A stretch of 64,000 nt of DNA from Ferruginibacter sp. (GTDB taxonomy: Bacteria > Bacteroidota > Bacteroidia > Chitinophagales > Chitinophagaceae): NCBI RefSeq assembly GCF_028288465.1, contig NZ_JAQBNR010000048.1, positions 1 through 64,000 on the forward strand, read 5' to 3'. The position numbers and the translations under genes are program-made. The first letter of the stretch is position 1, and each line of letters starts with the position of its first letter. Below the pieces are notes generated by a model. That model saw only the letters and a list, made by a program, of their open reading frames with translations. It was not told the origin of the DNA and searched no databases. This document shows, piece after piece, positions 1 to 5,651 of the stretch.

Positions 1-741
1 GTAGCTAAAATTTACCTGCTGGGCAGTACCCTGCAACAGCAGCGCACAGAAAGTGTTTTTATGACCGATGCGCCGGGCTGCCGCCATGCCAGTCATTACT
101 GGTTGCTGGTACTGGTTGATAAGGAATGCGGCGGTAACAATAATGCTGTGCAGGATAAAATAGAAAATACCTGCCGCCCTGTTGTACCCGTTACGGTTAT
201 TATACTTGACAGAGCACAGTTTTACAACTGGTTGAATGAAGGACACCCGTTTGCCTGCAGGGTGGCAAATATAGCCGTAGTACTGCATGACGTTACCAAC
301 ACACCTGCTGTGGTAGCGGCCAGCACAAACGAAGACCGTACAAATGCCAGCCGGGCTTATTGTATGCTGGGCATTAACAGGGTAAGCGAATTTATAGCAG
401 GAGCAGACTTGTACCGGCTAAGGCAACAACATAAAATGGCAGCCTTTATGCTGCACCAGGCTGCAGAGCAGGCATTGCTGACCATCTTTAAAAAAGGCAC
501 CGGCCTGCATCTTAGCAGTCACAATATACACAAGCTGCTCCGTTATTGCGCCCTGGTCAATTATAAAATACCGGCCATCTTTCCGGCAGGCAATGAAACC
601 AGTGAAAGGCTGCTGCGCCTGCTGCAGAAAGCCTATATAGATGCCCGGTATAAAGAAGATTTTACCATCAGCGGTACTGACTTAATTTCAATTACAGAAA
701 AAGTAAAAATGTTGCAGGAGATACTGCTACAAACAAAATAG
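1..741 (+). CDS. HEPN domain-containing protein, C-terminal part (5' end outside window)
   Basis: The frame is open from base 1, so this is the 3' part of a longer gene; the first ATG at 61 is internal. The N-terminal visible part (KIYLLGSTLQQQRTESVF, then a hydrophobic strand WLLVLVDKE) resembles the substrate-domain-like region that precedes HEPN in Bacteroidota proteins of this type. Visible residues from about 115 onward form the helical HEPN domain (SRAY..G...F, AAFMLHQAAEQALL, DARYKEDF). The canonical RNase motif RxxxxH is not evident, so nuclease activity is doubtful. The family is often paired with nucleotidyltransferases in toxin-antitoxin-like modules, but no partner is visible here. 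Function is unknown; the HEPN assignment is fairly secure. Confidence 0.8.
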   Translation, partial: VAKIYLLGSTLQQQRTESVFMTDAPGCRHASHYWLLVLVDKECGGNNNAVQDKIENTCRPVVPVTVIILDRAQFYNWLNEGHPFACRVANIAVVLHDVTNTPAVVAASTNEDRTNASRAYCMLGINRVSEFIAGADLYRLRQQHKMAAFMLHQAAEQALLTIFKKGTGLHLSSHNIHKLLRYCALVNYKIPAIFPAGNETSERLLRLLQKAYIDARYKEDFTISGTDLISITEKVKMLQEILLQTK

Positions 742-898
742 TATGTTGTTTTTACAAAGTTTCCGCCTTAAGAAAACAGAGTGGCTGGCTACATTGCGCA
801 ACAGAAAGTAGTTTCATTAATACGTAGGCTGTAACAAACCTGACAGTAGCATTACTAAAGCTGAACCTACTATTTGCAACAGCTCAATAAAGCTGCCT

Positions 899-939
899 GT
901 CAGCAACGGGCTGTATTCGTTGCTGACTTGACTTTTTTT
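899..939 (+). terminator. Terminator-like hairpin inside repeat copy A
   Basis: GTCAGCAACG (899-908) and CGTTGCTGAC (918-927) form a perfect 10-bp stem with a 9-nt loop, followed by TTGAC and a T run up to about 940. It could end transcription of the HEPN gene. The stem is only partly kept in copy B, so it may be a feature of this copy. Confidence 0.5.
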
Positions 940-954
940 TGTTATCTTTCTTTG

Positions 955-962
955 TGTCAAGA
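955..962. repeat. Left target-site duplication of the mobile element
   Basis: TGTCAAGA directly outside the left inverted repeat, identical to 5382-5389. A duplication of 8 bp is what the IS1595 family is known to make. Confidence 0.9.
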
Positions 963-993
963 GGTAACTACATACCTGTTAGACCACGGGGGT
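963..993 (+). repeat. Left terminal inverted repeat
   Basis: Starts GGTAACTACATACCTG and ends GGGGGT. Its reverse complement lies at 5351-5381, with a single mismatch at the 28th base (G here, A in the other copy). Confidence 0.92.
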
Positions 994-1092
994 AAATTTC
1001 GTTATTTTTGAGCGGATATCGATTGTTCCTCCGAAAAAGTAAAACTTAAGGGCCTGCCAAGTTGGATATAGTCTAAAAAAAAATGTTTAAAC

Positions 1093-1126
1093 TTATTGTA
1101 TATATTAAAATTTTAGCATTACTTTG
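1093..1126 (+). promoter_or_regulatory. Possible promoter for the first membrane-protein gene of the element
   Basis: TTATTG (1093-1098), then 20 bases, then TTACTTTG (1119-1126). This is near the Bacteroidota TTTG / TAnnTTTG consensus but imperfect in the -7 box, so it is weak. Confidence 0.3.
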
Positions 1127-1201
1127 AAGCGCATACAATATCTACTGCAAGCCATTAACATTTTATTTGCAACTAAAACCAGCAACTTGCGCTCTTAATT
1201 A

Positions 1202-1567
1202 ATGGCTAAATCCAGCTCAGCTACTCCTGCAAAAAAAGAGAAAAATAATCCGTATAGACCTAATGTTTGGGGAATGATTCGAGACATTATGGTTCATGCC
1301 ATAAATAAGGGACAATTACCTGTGACGGGTTTAATTTTACTGCTGGGTTTAGTAGTTTTTAAAATGCCTGCAGAGGATGTATCTAAGCTGATGTATGCAA
1401 CAATTCGCCAGTTTAAAACGTTATATTATCTGGGTTGGACTTTAGATGGTGTGATTATTGTTACCTGGGTAATTGTACAGCGAAAATTAACGCGGGGTTA
1501 CAGAAGAGAATTGGATAGAATTAACAACGAAAACCAAGAATTGCAAAAAAAGTTATTAGATTCATAA
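1202..1567 (+). CDS. Small membrane protein of the mobile element, unknown function
   Basis: 121 residues. A basic Lys/Pro-rich N-terminus (1-35) is followed by a hydrophobic segment at about 40-55 (TGLILLLGLVVF), a second at about 76-95 (LGWTLDGVIIVTWVIV) and a charged C-terminal helix likely to form a short coiled coil (RRELDRINNENQELQKKL). I do not recognise a family. It lies 31 bases before the next membrane-protein gene in the same direction, so they are likely co-transcribed. Being inside the inverted repeats it is cargo of the transposon. The two-helix layout could suit a membrane anchor or holin-like partner, but nothing in the sequence decides this. Confidence 0.7.
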   Translation: MAKSSSATPAKKEKNNPYRPNVWGMIRDIMVHAINKGQLPVTGLILLLGLVVFKMPAEDVSKLMYATIRQFKTLYYLGWTLDGVIIVTWVIVQRKLTRGYRRELDRINNENQELQKKLLDS

Positions 1568-1598
1568 CAATCGTGAATTAACTTAAACTATACATAAA

Positions 1599-2210
1599 AT
1601 GGCTACTCTATTTTTTATTGTAATACTGCTTTCAGTTTACCATTTTGTTATGGAAACTTTGGTATTGCCAGCATTGAAAGAAGAGCTGCGCTTTAAATTA
1701 TTGAAGTTGAGAAGTAAGCTATGTAATTTAAAATTACAAGCTAAAGATAAGTTAGATGGAAAAACGTTTAGCGACTTAGACGCCGCTATTGTATTTAATC
1801 ATAATCATATGGATTCGCTAAATCTTGTAGATTTTATGACCACTATGAAAAGTATAAAAAATGATAGAAAGCTAATTGCTCAAGCTGATAGCGATATTAA
1901 ACGAATCGAAAATATGAATCTTCCTGAAGCGAAGGCGATATTTGAAAAATTCAACAAATATTTTATTCTTACACTGGCAGTTAACTGTGGGGCTTGGGGG
2001 CTTTATTTTCTTCCTATTATCCCCTTTATCTTACTTACCAGATTGATGAAAAGATTTTGGAGGAAGAGTGATCGTCGCGCAAAAAATCTTGCTTTTGTTA
2101 TTTCAGAAAAGCGTCATTTCCCTGCTGAGGAGCCACATGCTATAAGGGTAAATGTTACTAATGGCTTTGATAAGATTAGGAGTAAATGGCATGGAGAAAT
2201 TGCCCTTTAA
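1599..2210 (+). CDS. Membrane protein of the mobile element, unknown function
   Basis: 203 residues. One N-terminal hydrophobic segment (about 2-22, LFFIVILLSVYHFVMETLVL), a charged helical middle part (30-120) rich in Lys, Asp and Asn, and a second hydrophobic stretch at about 122-148 (FILTLAVNCGAWGLYFLPIIPFILL) followed by a basic tail. The fold would place the middle segment between two membrane spans. I do not recognise the family. It is the second gene of the left cargo pair and shows the A+T-rich codon use of the rest of the element. It converges on the XRE gene at 2261. Confidence 0.7.
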   Translation: MATLFFIVILLSVYHFVMETLVLPALKEELRFKLLKLRSKLCNLKLQAKDKLDGKTFSDLDAAIVFNHNHMDSLNLVDFMTTMKSIKNDRKLIAQADSDIKRIENMNLPEAKAIFEKFNKYFILTLAVNCGAWGLYFLPIIPFILLTRLMKRFWRKSDRRAKNLAFVISEKRHFPAEEPHAIRVNVTNGFDKIRSKWHGEIAL

Positions 2211-2260
2211 GAATGAATCAAAGAAATATTTGCAACCCAAGTATTGCTGCCTTAAATTTT

Positions 2261-2470
2261 TTATAAAAAGTCTTTTACATTCATTTTAAATAAATCGGCG
2301 ATGCCCTTTAAAGTTAGTAAGTGCATATTGCTTTTACCATTCTCCAAAAATGAGATACTGCTATAGTGTATGCCGATATCCTTACCTACCTGCTGTAAGG
2401 TCATTTTTCTTTTTCGTCGGGCTGCTTTTACTTTTGCGCCTACCAGTTTCAGATACTCTCCGTTACTCAT
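2261..2470 (-). CDS. XRE-family helix-turn-helix regulator, coupled to the transposase
   Basis: 69 residues, almost entirely one HTH_XRE domain: GAKVKAARRKRKMTLQQVGKDIG forms the first helices, IHYSSISFLENGK the recognition helix region, and LKGIADLFKMNVKDFL the closing helices. Its ATG overlaps the transposase stop codon (ATGA, bases 2467-2470), so translation is probably coupled and the two proteins made from one message. By analogy with other small XRE proteins it likely represses a promoter of the element; the interleaved divergent promoters at 3409-3458 are the obvious candidate operator region. That role is inference. Confidence 0.85.
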   Translation of the reverse strand: MSNGEYLKLVGAKVKAARRKRKMTLQQVGKDIGIHYSSISFLENGKSNMHLLTLKGIADLFKMNVKDFL

Positions 2471-3390
2471 ATTTTAGCTGTTAATTCTTTATATTTTAAA
2501 GAGCCATTACAATTGGTTAAGGCTGCAGCAAAACGTTCATCCTGCAATAACTCTCTGTTATTATGTCTGAAAGCTGATTCATTGCAATAGCGTTGTAAAT
2601 GCTTTGGGCTTACTGAATGATGAATGCCGTCGATTTGTTTTTTCAAAATATTCCAGTACCCTTCAATTGTGTTAGTATGTACCAAAATATCTTCTTTACG
2701 AACATATTCTTTATTCCGGTGGTTAACCTTCTTATGGTTGTATTTTTGTCCAACCTTGTTATAAGCATGATGGTCGTCTGATACCATAGTACTATCAGGT
2801 GTTATAAACCCTTCAATTGCTTCACTGATGTTTTCAATGTTGGTTTGAGGTATAACCTTAGTCTTTACCTTTCCCTGCCGTTGTACGGCCCCGAATACCA
2901 TAGTCTTATTACCAACCCCTCCCTTTACTTTTCTTTTGCTCTCATGCTTGTTAGATTCGCTGCCACCGATGTACGTTTCATCAACCTCAACAATACCGTC
3001 CAACAATTCAGGTGCGTTATCAGTCAGCATAACCCTTATACGATGGTTTAAATGCCATGCAGTTTTTTGTGTTACACCTAACCAGTTGGCAAGCTGTAAA
3101 CTGCTAATACCTTTGCTATGTACTGATAAAATATAGGTAGCTAAGAACCATTTCTGTAATGGAATTTTTGTGTTTTCATAAATAGTGCCAACAGTAACAC
3201 TAAACTTACTGCGGCACTGTTTTTCCCGGCATTTAAATATCCGGCCATTGCTGAACCGGCAAACATTAAGAGAGCCACAAAACGGGCATGCTGGTGTACC
3301 ATTCCATCTTTGCGCTTCTAAATACTCCCTGCATTTTTCTTCGCTGCTAAATTCTTTTTGAAAGTCTAATATTGATTTGAATGTTTTCAT
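2467..3390 (-). CDS. IS1595-family (ISXO2-like) transposase
   Basis: 307 residues, the usual length for the family. The N-terminal zinc ribbon has Cys35, Cys38, Cys54 and Cys59, followed by a helix-turn-helix-like region (SLQLANWLGVTQKTAWHL, about 97-114). The catalytic RNase H-like domain shows VEVDETYIGG with Asp137, SDDHHAY with Asp205/206, and NTIEGYWNILKK with Asn240/Glu243. All key positions look intact, so the enzyme is probably active. It would cut at the 31-bp ends and leave 8-bp duplications, as seen here. It is transcribed from a promoter at 3409-3440 and overlaps the XRE gene by 4 bases. Confidence 0.93.
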   Translation of the reverse strand: MKTFKSILDFQKEFSSEEKCREYLEAQRWNGTPACPFCGSLNVCRFSNGRIFKCREKQCRSKFSVTVGTIYENTKIPLQKWFLATYILSVHSKGISSLQLANWLGVTQKTAWHLNHRIRVMLTDNAPELLDGIVEVDETYIGGSESNKHESKRKVKGGVGNKTMVFGAVQRQGKVKTKVIPQTNIENISEAIEGFITPDSTMVSDDHHAYNKVGQKYNHKKVNHRNKEYVRKEDILVHTNTIEGYWNILKKQIDGIHHSVSPKHLQRYCNESAFRHNNRELLQDERFAAALTNCNGSLKYKELTAKI

Positions 3391-3408
3391 CTTCTTAATT
3401 GTCTTAGA

Positions 3409-3440
3409 TAAAGGTAGGGAGTTTATTTTGAATTACAAAA
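3409..3440 (-). promoter_or_regulatory. Promoter of the transposase-XRE operon
   Basis: Read on the minus strand: TTTTG (3440-3436), 19 bases, TACCTTTA (3416-3409). This fits the Bacteroidota TTTG-N19-TAnnTTTG pattern except the last base. It ends about 20 bases from the transposase ATG and is interleaved with the opposite promoter. Confidence 0.6.
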
Positions 3441-3458
3441 TTTATTTTTGTATATTTG
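3426..3458 (+). promoter_or_regulatory. Promoter of the zinc-ribbon/P63C operon
   Basis: TTTTG (3426-3430), 20 bases, TATATTTG (3451-3458): a full match to TAnnTTTG with good spacing. The ATG follows at 3479. Its -33 box lies inside the spacer of the opposite promoter and vice versa, so both cannot be occupied at once. Confidence 0.7.
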
Positions 3459-3478
3459 CCCTACCAATATATAAGACA

Positions 3479-3883
3479 ATGACACTATGTCAAATTTATA
3501 AGAAATTACCAACTGAAGCAGACTGTATAGATTTGTTGGAGACTGTTATATGGGGGAATATCCCTAAATGCCCCTACTGTGGATCAACCAACTCTGTTGC
3601 ATTGACGTCCGGGAATAGGTATCATTGCAATAAATGCAATACAAGTTATAGTGTTACTGTAAAAACTATTTTTCATAAAACCAAAATTCCTCTTCAAAAA
3701 TGGTTTTATGTTATCCATTTAAAAGAAAAAAATGATTTATCTATTTCGGTTAGAAATTTAGGAGAGCAAATCGAAACAACAAAAGATACTGCTAATAGAA
3801 TAGTTAATAAAGTGAATAATTTTTACTTACTAAACTTAGGGCTGTTTAAATCAATTAATTCAAAAATTACAAAAAATGAGTAA
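3479..3883 (+). CDS. Transposase-like zinc-ribbon protein without DDE domain
   Basis: 134 residues from the ATG at 3479; an upstream in-frame start at 3377 would place translation before the promoter, so 3479 is preferred. It resembles the first ~120 residues of the neighbouring transposase: PKCPYCGS and YHCNKCN supply four cysteines of a zinc ribbon, then SVTVKTIFHKTKIPLQKWF and a helical segment. It stops where the catalytic domain would begin, with no frameshifted remainder after it: the next gene starts in an overlapping frame. This looks like a stand-alone DNA-binding derivative that could bind the transposon ends or modulate transposition. It could instead be an old truncation, but the clean promoter and gene overlap argue for use. 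Confidence 0.75.
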   Translation: MTLCQIYKKLPTEADCIDLLETVIWGNIPKCPYCGSTNSVALTSGNRYHCNKCNTSYSVTVKTIFHKTKIPLQKWFYVIHLKEKNDLSISVRNLGEQIETTKDTANRIVNKVNNFYLLNLGLFKSINSKITKNE

Positions 3884-4874
3884 TTTATTAAAAGCAACTC
3901 ACCAGGGCGAGTTACCTATTGGTGACATTATTTTACCCTGCGCAGTATTAGAAAACGGCACAAGGCTAATAACATATAGCGCTATTTTTAAAGCTTTTGG
4001 CAGGACTAAAAGAGGTGCCCATAAAGACAGAAAAAGCGGGGTGCGCAACATGCCCGCTTTTCTTAATGCAAATAACCTACAACCCTTTGTGGGAGAGGAT
4101 TTGATGGGGGTGCTCAAATTGATAGAATATACAGACATTTCGGGCAATCAAAGTACAGGCTATAACGCAACTATTTTACCCATGTTGTGTAAAGTTTATT
4201 TAGATGCAAGATCAACTATAAATTCAGATACGGGGAAGCGGTATTTGACAAAAAGTCAAGAGCCGCTGGCAAGAGCAAGTGAAATACTTTTATTAAGCCT
4301 TTCAAAGGTTGGTATCATTGCTTTAATTGATGAAGTAACCGGATACCAAGAATCTAGGGATAAAGATGCATTAACCAAATTCTTAGCTAAGTTTATTAAA
4401 GAAGAAAGAGGTGTTTATATAAAAACTTATCCAGATGAGTTTTTTGAAGCCTTATTTAAAATGAAGGGTTTAACTTGGAGCCTTGCTAATAAAGGTAAAA
4501 AGCCGCAGTATATAGGGCATTACATCAATAATTACGTATACTCACGCATTGCTCCTAACATATTAACTGAACTTAGGAGAGTAAATCCTAAAGATGAAGA
4601 TGGTAAAAGAAAAGGCAAGCATACGCAACATATTGACATTGATTATGGTCATCCTAAATTAAAAGAGCATATAACTGTCTTGACAATGTTTGCTAAAGCC
4701 GCTGGATTTAATTGGGCTAATTGGGAAAGGATGGTAGAAAGAGCACTACCAAGATACTCACAGGACGGTAGCCTTGTACAAGAATTACCTTTTACGGAAG
4801 TCATAGAAGAAAACGAAAATAAAAAAGGGCAATTAAGCCCTGTTAAAAAAGTCGTTCGCGGCGACGGGAAATAA
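3876..4874 (+). CDS. P63C domain-containing protein
   Basis: 332 residues; the ATG overlaps the end of the zinc-ribbon gene by 8 bases, so the two are co-translated. The sequence matches the P63C family: LPIGDIILPCAVLENGTRLITYSAIFKAFG near the N-terminus, LARASEILLLSLSKVGIIALIDEVTGYQESRDKDAL in the middle, and the P63C core GVYIKTYPDEFFEALFKMKG followed by YIGHYINNYVYSRIAPNILTELRRVNP. The C-terminus is charged and variable. P63C proteins occur on phages and mobile elements; their biochemical role is not established to my knowledge. Within this element it is the largest cargo protein. Domain call good, function unknown. Confidence 0.85.
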   Translation: MSNLLKATHQGELPIGDIILPCAVLENGTRLITYSAIFKAFGRTKRGAHKDRKSGVRNMPAFLNANNLQPFVGEDLMGVLKLIEYTDISGNQSTGYNATILPMLCKVYLDARSTINSDTGKRYLTKSQEPLARASEILLLSLSKVGIIALIDEVTGYQESRDKDALTKFLAKFIKEERGVYIKTYPDEFFEALFKMKGLTWSLANKGKKPQYIGHYINNYVYSRIAPNILTELRRVNPKDEDGKRKGKHTQHIDIDYGHPKLKEHITVLTMFAKAAGFNWANWERMVERALPRYSQDGSLVQELPFTEVIEENENKKGQLSPVKKVVRGDGK

Positions 4875-5000
4875 CGGTAAAATAAAATCTACTGTGAACC
4901 TTGTACATTAGCCATCTCATTAGTGGTTTCCCATTAGACGTAAGTGATATACAAGGATTTCCCTTTTTCAAAGGTAACAAAAATCTATAACTTTATATCT

Positions 5001-5144
5001 ATGGCAAAAGTTAAAAAGGCTGCACCAAAGAAAGCGGCAACTAAAACAGCAAAGGAAGCATCTAACGTATTTCATAACATCATGGCAGCATCAGTAAAAG
5101 ACAATCCAAAGCCTGTCAAAAAGAAAGTAGATAAAAATAAATGA
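5001..5144 (+). CDS. Small lysine/alanine-rich basic protein
   Basis: 47 residues from ATG 5001 (an in-frame start at 4944 is less likely). The sequence is AKVKKAAPKK-like at the N-terminus and KPVKKKVDKNK at the end, very basic, reminiscent of histone H1-like tails. Its stop overlaps the next ATG (ATGA, 5141-5144), which supports that it is translated. Possible nucleic-acid binding; no family recognised. Confidence 0.55.
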   Translation: MAKVKKAAPKKAATKTAKEASNVFHNIMAASVKDNPKPVKKKVDKNK

Positions 5145-5365
5145 TCTCTCTAAATGTTATCATTGGGATTGTAGCACTAACTGTATTAGGTTATGTTCTT
5201 TTAAATAATGGGCTACATGAAGAAACGGCGCAAGAAAAAATGATAAACCCAACCAAGCAATCTCCATTAAGAAATTTCCGTAAATGGCATATTGTGATAT
5301 TAGGTATAGTGTGTTGGGGATTTGCTTTATATCTTGCCTTTATTTTTTTAACCTCCGTGGTCTAA
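5141..5365 (+). CDS. Small two-helix membrane protein whose stop codon lies in the right inverted repeat
   Basis: 74 residues. Hydrophobic segments at about 3-22 (SLNVIIGIVALTVLGYVLLN) and 50-72 (IVILGIVCWGFALYLAFIFL) flank a polar loop. It overlaps the preceding gene by 4 bases. The last residues (TSVV) and the TAA stop (5363-5365) are encoded by the right terminal inverted repeat, so this gene has evolved together with the transposon end and is not a random passenger. Family not recognised. Confidence 0.65.
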   Translation: MISLNVIIGIVALTVLGYVLLNNGLHEETAQEKMINPTKQSPLRNFRKWHIVILGIVCWGFALYLAFIFLTSVV

Positions 5366-5381
5366 CAGGTATGTAGTTACC
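5351..5381 (-). repeat. Right terminal inverted repeat
   Basis: Reverse complement of 963-993 with one mismatch. It encodes the last codons and stop of the small membrane protein ending at 5365. Confidence 0.92.
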
Positions 5382-5389
5382 TGTCAAGA
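5382..5389. repeat. Right target-site duplication
   Basis: TGTCAAGA, identical to 955-962 and directly adjacent to the inverted repeat. Confidence 0.9.
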
Positions 5390-5474
5390 CAAAAAAAGTA
5401 AGGCGTAAGCGACGATTAACTAAACAACCTGCGACTTAAATAACTCCCGCAGATCCAGCAGATAAACGCACATA

Positions 5475-5651
5475 AGAATGCGACTTTTATTAATACCTGG
5501 GCTGTAACAAGCCTGACAGCAGCATTACAAAAGCTGAAACACAACGTACAACAGCCCAACAAAGCTATATACAAGCAACAGACTTAATCGTTGACTACCC
5601 GACTTTTTTTTGTTATTTATTTTGCGTTCAGGGCAAAAAAAGTACATAAAA
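5475..5651. repeat. Intergenic repeat copy B (intact)
   Basis: Second copy of the ~150-bp repeat seen at 803-962. It ends in the same hairpin form: an A/T stem ending TTTTG, a loop CGTTCAGGG and CAAAAAAAGTA. Loop bases differ from copy A, while the stem pattern is kept. The surrounding 5390-5697 carries no gene. Confidence 0.7.

Follow-up and report, generated by a model that had tools for sequence, protein, structure and literature searches.

When analyzing 64,000 nucleotides of Ferruginibacter sp. DNA (contig NZ_JAQBNR010000048.1, positions 1 to 64,000; this whole stretch is called the window below), we found at positions 963 to 5381 a complete, cargo-bearing IS1595-type transposon inserted inside one unit of a genomic repeat. 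The element is probably a mosaic of two IS1595 lineages, in which the side carrying the transposase gene (Tnp) has been joined to the front of an element composed of a transposase gene and a P63C gene. A wider reading, which we put forward as an improbable speculation when taken as a whole, would place it in a family-wide fleet of very small (2 to 6.5 kb) defense carriers that have a lysine-rich protein as their hallmark and often lie in interspersed repeats, and would have the window copy using a captured rival transposase as repressor and the rival's old end as operator.

The element and its insertion site

The outer structure of the element and the genes discussed first are as follows.

955..962, no strand, left target duplication, TGTCAAGA
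963..993, + strand, left terminal inverted repeat, matching the right repeat at 30/31
1202..1567, + strand, 121-aa protein matching PADLOC 2TM-TIR (E 6.7e-28) and phrog_33772
1599..2210, + strand, 203-aa protein matching PADLOC 1TM-TIR (E 8.1e-25) and phrog_24550
2261..2470, - strand, Cro/CI-type helix-turn-helix (HTH_3) regulator, overlapping the transposase gene by 4 nt
2467..3390, - strand, Tnp, IS1595/ISXO2-type transposase with zinc ribbon and DDE domain, from Pfam domains and motifs
5001..5144, + strand, lysine-rich protein of 47 aa, recurrent in this IS1595 lineage
5141..5365, + strand, hydrophobic protein of 74 aa (judged by eye), overlapping the lysine-rich gene by 4 nt
5351..5381, - strand, right terminal inverted repeat, inverted match to the left repeat
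5382..5389, no strand, right target duplication, TGTCAAGA, identical to the left copy
5471..5645, + strand, neighboring repeat unit serving as empty site, a genome repeat with 24 matches

The element measures 4,419 bp. A sequence-only reading of the window had described a complete IS1595-type element with 31-bp inverted repeats differing at one position, an exact 8-bp duplication, an intact transposase, cargo, and an HTH regulator gene of its own, and all of this was borne out (30/31 for the repeats and 8/8 for the duplication). Tnp has the domains DDE_Tnp_IS1595 (PF12762, E 1.4e-41) and Zn_ribbon_IS1595 (PF12760, E 9e-11), together with all three DDE-region motifs sought, EVDETYIGG, SDDHHAY, and HTNTIEGYW, to which we presume the catalytic residues can be assigned. 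A PDB sequence search with Tnp gave nothing usable. With up to three mismatches allowed, the 6.88-Mb genome contains the 31-bp end at just these two sites.

The same reading had suggested looking for an empty site, and one lies next to the element. When the left flank, one copy of the duplication, and the right flank are joined, they align across the junction with the neighboring unit from position 5485 at 78% identity (127/163). This alignment and the 24 genome-wide matches to the unit, both window units counted, indicate that the genome holds comparable units without an interruption. The repeat unit (window 812-945 and 5471-5645) is about 130 to 175 bp long, and its copies often stand in small clusters.

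Relatives, their cargo, and their targets

Within the same bacterial family, 34 of 147 genomes, that of the window among them, have relatives of Tnp at E 1e-40 or better. Wide regions were taken for 40 of the 53 matches (again including our own), plus one further locus, L076; as these relatives were picked by likeness to this Tnp, the survey is not a census. Ends flanked by a target duplication could be assigned at 14 of the first 20 loci (13 by script with 8/8 duplications, and L054 manually with a duplication of 7 bp) and at 9 of the second 20, leaving 6 and 11 loci without assigned ends; candidates in L107, L109, and L118 are not counted. The 23 bounded relatives span 2.2 to 6.5 kb with no bare insertion sequence (IS) among them, and the expectation that simple members hold only the transposase therefore does not suit these neighbors. 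Together with the window element and four P63C-carrying elements (L033, L043, L044, and L076), they form the set of 28 used below.

In a test of the end finding, 12 of 15 loci scored 17 to 24 of 24 with an exact duplication, while 43 of 45 mismatched-flank control pairs scored 15/24 or lower. The high control pair L056/L061 (18) is accounted for by a common target, GTTGCGTC; the other, L064/L055 (23), has no shared-target explanation, and the script alone thus yields some false positives. Several assignments should be read with this in mind: L064 is weak (17/24), L072 (18/24) has an equal second placement because its site is a palindrome, L063 has two placements at 24/24, of which the one beginning GGTAAC was adopted, and L108 (14/24) was accepted for the likeness of its ends and duplication to those of L069.

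The gene that recurs most clearly encodes the lysine-rich protein, found in 16 of the 28 elements and nowhere in 295 kb of their flanks with a model that was built from 9 of these elements and then refined using hits inside elements; the cargo is therefore not all random. Its start in the window is more likely 5001 than 4944, a choice made from homology. The protein is present in 27 of the 147 genomes, 22 of which belong to the 34 genomes with Tnp. Weak or orphan hits led to 14 extra stretches, 4 with transposase fragments and 10 without; several of the 14 reach contig ends. One of them, L151:5804-7538, is a derivative of 1,735 bp with ends matching 24/24 and an 8/8 duplication; it contains the lysine-rich gene and, of the transposase, only a C-terminal fragment. 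Guessing from its composition, the lysine-rich protein probably assists transposition as an accessory DNA-binding protein.

The two genes next to the left end match two sister families of PADLOC, and the profiles are largely covered (positions 2-157 of 186 for 1TM-TIR and 5-115 of 124 for 2TM-TIR). To deny the whole cargo any known function was thus too strong, although 1TM-TIR and 2TM-TIR are catalogue names, and the accessible papers gave no account of the parent system behind them. No TIR or reverse-transcriptase partner of the pair was found in the element or in the open reading frame (ORF) at 61-741, and the contig stops further left. A related pair occurs at L083 (6249-7186), where the 2TM protein is 29% identical over 96 aa (E 3e-12) and the 1TM protein 23% identical over 149 aa (E 8e-17); none of 16 IS1595 transposases had a match within its 7.7 kb, which stop 0.5 kb past the pair. 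The 1TM family was found in 2 of 296 genomes of a phylum sample, those of L083 and of the window, and the 1TM protein had no match in viral and plasmid scans. At L083:6028-7279, a hairpin repeat with GGCGAACCCC stands in inverted orientation on the two sides of the 2TM/1TM pair.

A PADLOC scan covered 48 proteins of the window and its relatives, drawn from 24 of the 28 elements (L033, L043, L076, and L102 were left out). With the plain HTH gene of the window set aside, PADLOC-type matches were obtained for 10 of the 48 proteins in 6 of the 24 elements. Besides the window pair they include SoFic in L062, PD-Lambda-2_B in L063, HEC-09 in L069, and PDC-S02 in L119. The sixth element is L112:4479-9426 (genome G083, same family), an IS1595 element with ends matching 23/24 and an exact duplication that packs ShosA, ShosT, AbiD, and RhuM/PDC-S05 into 4.9 kb, a mini defense island on an IS. 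PIN domains are carried by L060 and L067. For the window element, we slightly favor the view that the two-gene membrane cassette is defense or toxin-type cargo that pays for its carriage. If this holds, defense genes would travel also on IS-sized elements parked in interspersed repeats, beyond phages, plasmids, and large transposons. Elements such as L112 would then be ready-made sources of defense candidates, because the nontransposase content between two short ends is a testable cassette.

Repeats are favored landing places in part of the family. Six elements (L056, L060, L061, L069, L108, and L151) are inserted at the same bases of TTGCGTC/GCACWCTTG sites, with a deviation at the last base in L056 and L060. 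In the five genomes that house these elements, copies of the target repeat TTGCGTCGCACWCTTG number 1170 (G141), 723 (G058), 178 (G068), 112 (G004), and 13 (G016); elsewhere the 16-mer has 10 copies in G000, 7 in G034, and 0 in G069, and the reversed control gave 0. Inverted arms of at least 6/10 surround the duplication in 5 of 27 elements (window 8, L063 9, L067 6, L072 10, and L106 6), with 5 or fewer in the remaining 22 (Fisher 4e-6 over the 27). This set excludes L108 and includes the doubtful L109; L054, tested apart, has arms of 7/10. The idea that all elements target hairpin loops was rejected, as arms of 6 or more occur in this subset only.

A second transposase lineage and a possible switch

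The middle of the element holds a second group of features.

3398..3419, + strand, relic end of a transposase-P63C element (core of its terminal inverted repeat) and first arm of an inverted pair, a candidate operator
3427..3458, + strand, promoter-like site TTTG-N20-TATATTTG for 3479-4874, from a consensus match
3459..3480, - strand, the other arm of this pair, covering the ZNH start, likewise a candidate operator
3479..3883, + strand, ZNH, the zinc-ribbon and HTH-region half of a second IS1595 transposase, without DDE domain
3876..4874, + strand, P63C protein (PF10546; phrog_2384), overlapping ZNH by 8 nt

The mosaic structure was recognized by comparison with two other elements. The first, L054:4964-8239 from the same genus, is a sister element that shares the ends of ours (2 and 3 of 23 positions mismatched). 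Its Tnp is 81% and its HTH protein 39% identical to ours, and its lysine-rich protein is of the same type. Where the window has P63C and the membrane pair, L054 has other cargo. Two of these cargo proteins resemble a pair in L067 (49% and 43% identity) in which one member carries a PIN domain (PF01850); Pfam gave no match for the L054 copies. The comparison of cargo between copies that had been proposed from the sequence thus reveals differences, and cargo varies among close relatives of the element in general. At the DNA level, homology to the Tnp region of L054 runs over 2473-3406 of the window. The ORF at L054:3854-4408 resembles what we take, by its motif, to be a REP-associated tyrosine transposase; it lies near palindromic repeats, and the sister element sits inside one such repeat.

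The second element is L076, in which P63C follows directly after the transposase gene. The N terminus of its transposase is 50% identical to ZNH over 126 aa, its P63C is 48% identical to that of the window, and the gene order matches that of ZNH and P63C. The core of the L076 end, TGTCATAGATAAAGGTAGTG, matches the window once, over 3400-3419 and with 2 mismatches, against 0.00 matches expected, and the distance from this relic to the ATG of ZNH is 79 bp, compared with 84 bp in L076. As the homology to L054 stops at 3406 and the L076 core match covers 3400-3419, the junction is placed at about 3400 to 3406. The same order of transposase and P63C is found in L033, L043, and L044. All four elements are bounded by 8/8 duplications (L033, 2,055 bp; L043, 2,109 bp; L044, 3,013 bp; L076, 2,305 bp), and the P63C genes near ISXO2-type transposases that the sequence-only reading had suggested looking for stand directly behind the transposase here.

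ZNH was previously taken for an accessory DNA-binding protein. By its sequence it is the DNA-binding half of a second IS1595 transposase, a truncated paralogue. It matches PF12760 (E 1.8e-11), aligns to transposase N termini only, lacks a DDE domain in the Pfam scan, and retains the four zinc-ribbon cysteines. Its start, chosen from homology, is more likely the ATG at 3479 than 3377. The 8-nt overlap with P63C has a parallel in the L033 pair.

The P63C protein matches phrog_2384 with an E value of 7e-93 over residues 3-297 of 332, and an alignment of 20 rows shows invariant residues in DEVTGYQ..R at positions 152-161. Its structure model is moderate (pLDDT 77, pTM 0.48), with Mx8 p63 among its best viral matches (E 6e-7); Foldseek similarity of this pTM 0.48 model to phage Bro-N/antirepressor proteins is weak (E 0.006-0.05, low TM-scores). 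The sequence matches phrog_2899 Ant at 4e-5, no Bro-N or Ant domain was found by Pfam, and fold and sequence searches of PDB gave nothing usable. P63C occurs in 2 of the 147 family genomes, our own included, and 3 of 21 P63C loci (L035 and L047 apparently being one locus) have a relative of Tnp directly upstream. Relatives were also found in 46 phage and 12 plasmid records, so that neither P63C nor the membrane pair, given L083, is confined to such ends as the sequence-only reading had expected. Seven of these records were inspected for context. In SPN9CC the P63C gene and the end of cI overlap, in Gordonia phage Petra and satellite Javan441 there are integrase and repressor genes nearby, and in SEN34 the gene stands by itself on the opposite strand; the other three records are plasmids of 5.8, 8.5, and 20 kb. 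In a P63C tree the label IS1595 needs at least three changes, the five IS1595 copies falling into two groups (window and L076; L033, L043, and L044 with two others); the gene therefore moves between element types, and a single IS1595 lineage of P63C is not supported. The available part of one article on a phage network (PMC6536676) merely names the P63C domain. A protein at L102:3764-4168 overlaps the end of an IS1595 transposase gene and resembles part of P63C (E 2e-7), with no Pfam match.

The relic arm and the inverted arm lie at the two ends of the 88 bp that separate the divergent Tnp and ZNH genes, and the arm at 3459-3480 extends into the ZNH start codon. The pair folds well as single-stranded DNA (z -7.6, 0 of 200 shuffles as good). 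The promoter-like site between the arms has what we take to be the Bacteroidota form, TTTG-N20-TATATTTG. In IS1, the protein InsA, with a zinc finger and an HTH but no catalytic domain and kin to the N terminus of the transposase, represses via the element ends. By analogy, ZNH, which likewise has no catalytic domain, might bind both arms, the relic at 3398-3419 and the inverted copy at 3459-3480, and this binding would repress both Tnp and the operon of ZNH itself. On this analysis such a switch is a tentative proposal, and the two arms are a candidate operator. P63C, cotranslated with ZNH, would be a phage-type regulator or an exclusion protein. If the switch is real, the ZNH-P63C junction is a directly testable case of a transposase captured as repressor, and P63C, a temperate-phage gene without an assigned role, gains a tractable setting.

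Competing explanations and known systems

Several observations weigh against the explanation favored here, a mosaic element with defense-type cargo and a ZNH switch. By the 31-bp end search, the element is single copy in its own genome. The PADLOC names 1TM-TIR and 2TM-TIR are not tested functions, and no TIR or reverse-transcriptase protein was found among the proteins of the element. The flank control of the PADLOC scan was small (0/10 proteins versus 10/48) and not significant by itself; because, in addition, the proteins were hand-picked, defense enrichment is suggested and not proven. The promoter-like TTTG-N20-TATATTTG occurs once in the window against 3.5 matches expected by chance, and the site is thus suggestive by position only. 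As for the relic, its TTGTCTTA part also precedes Tnp in L054, where there is no ZNH, so that the relic end is clearly foreign in its inner part only; behind P63C, no counterpart on the right was seen, the best candidate matching at 16/31. The idea of a fused transposase C terminus as the source of the ZNH tail was rejected, since 751 of 1000 shuffles were as good. ZNH may be a decaying fragment.

This last point leads to a plainer explanation. IS1595 members with passenger genes are said to have been named transporter IS (tIS) by Siguier, Gagnevin and Chandler in 2009, and the element could be an ordinary tIS with randomly trapped neighboring genes and a dead IS1595 fragment; ZNH and P63C would be remains in decay, and the membrane pair would have been picked up by chance and have no part in transposition or defense. 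The different cargo of close relatives, the rarity of P63C in the family, the missing right relic end, the ZNH tail unlike a transposase C terminus, and the decayed relative L151 with its C-terminal transposase fragment would all suit it, as do the passenger genes already known in IS1595 from the accessible text of PMC11891212. We consider it rather unlikely, with the ORFs intact, the four cysteines of ZNH and its overlap with P63C kept as in the L033 pair, and the lysine-rich protein recurring in the elements and absent from their flanks.

Alternatively, P63C itself could be the payload, a superinfection exclusion or defense gene shared by phages, plasmids, and IS1595, with ZNH just its leader gene. 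The phage contexts beside cI, near integrase and repressor genes, or alone, the plasmid copies, and the movement of the gene between element types agree with this explanation. It appears doubtful, however, when P63C stands directly behind the transposase in four elements, which suits a role in transposition, when L033 and L043 have no other ORF of at least 40 aa among those listed, and when the weak likeness of the model to Bro-N/antirepressor proteins and the phrog_2899 Ant match suit a regulator. That all its genes together form a single undescribed system, as the sequence-only reading had it, is very improbable for this element: its genes share one pair of ends, but P63C is found elsewhere with a full transposase or in phages, the membrane pair stands apart in L083, and the set of Tnp, HTH, and lysine-rich genes has other cargo in L054.

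The element looks like a member of the cargo-carrying tIS kind, and its make-up like a new variant. Published accounts of passenger genes on IS1595 elements exist (PMC7986276 and PMC11891212, accessible text), and one of these elements is ISNha5, whose passenger is a transcription regulator (PMC11891212). As far as these texts go, zinc ribbon and DDE_Tnp_IS1595 domain, terminal inverted repeats, 8-bp duplication, and putative passenger genes are shared with tIS; the recurrent lysine-rich protein, the defense-type cargo, and the insertion into interspersed repeats of the element and its relatives differ, as does the second, truncated transposase coupled to P63C in the window. In the titles and abstracts searched, which included few subscription journals, neither P63C-transposase pairs nor IS1595 defense cargo were described; no search was aimed at the lysine-rich protein. 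Tn7-like transposons also carry defense and toxin-antitoxin genes, according to the accessible part of PMC8649781, with another transposase family and other core genes; the elements here measure 2 to 6.5 kb.

Within the element, the resemblance of ZNH to InsA includes the zinc ribbon and HTH without a catalytic domain, the kinship to a transposase N terminus, and the predicted binding to element ends near a promoter. Unlike InsA, which comes from the transposase region of IS1 itself, ZNH would stem from another IS1595 lineage whose former end is the candidate operator. The two adjacent membrane-protein genes correspond to the sister families 1TM-TIR and 2TM-TIR, without the TIR protein or another named partner having been found in the element. 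P63C is like the phage proteins of the Mx8 p63 type in its phrog_2384 match and its model, and unlike them in being coupled to a transposase fragment and not set among phage genes.

The G+C content is 0.349 within the element, compared with 0.417 in the window to its right; the window starts at contig base 1, where the sequence left of the element ends. A HEPN-domain protein (PF05168, E 1.7e-7) is encoded there, at window 61-741, adjoining the element.

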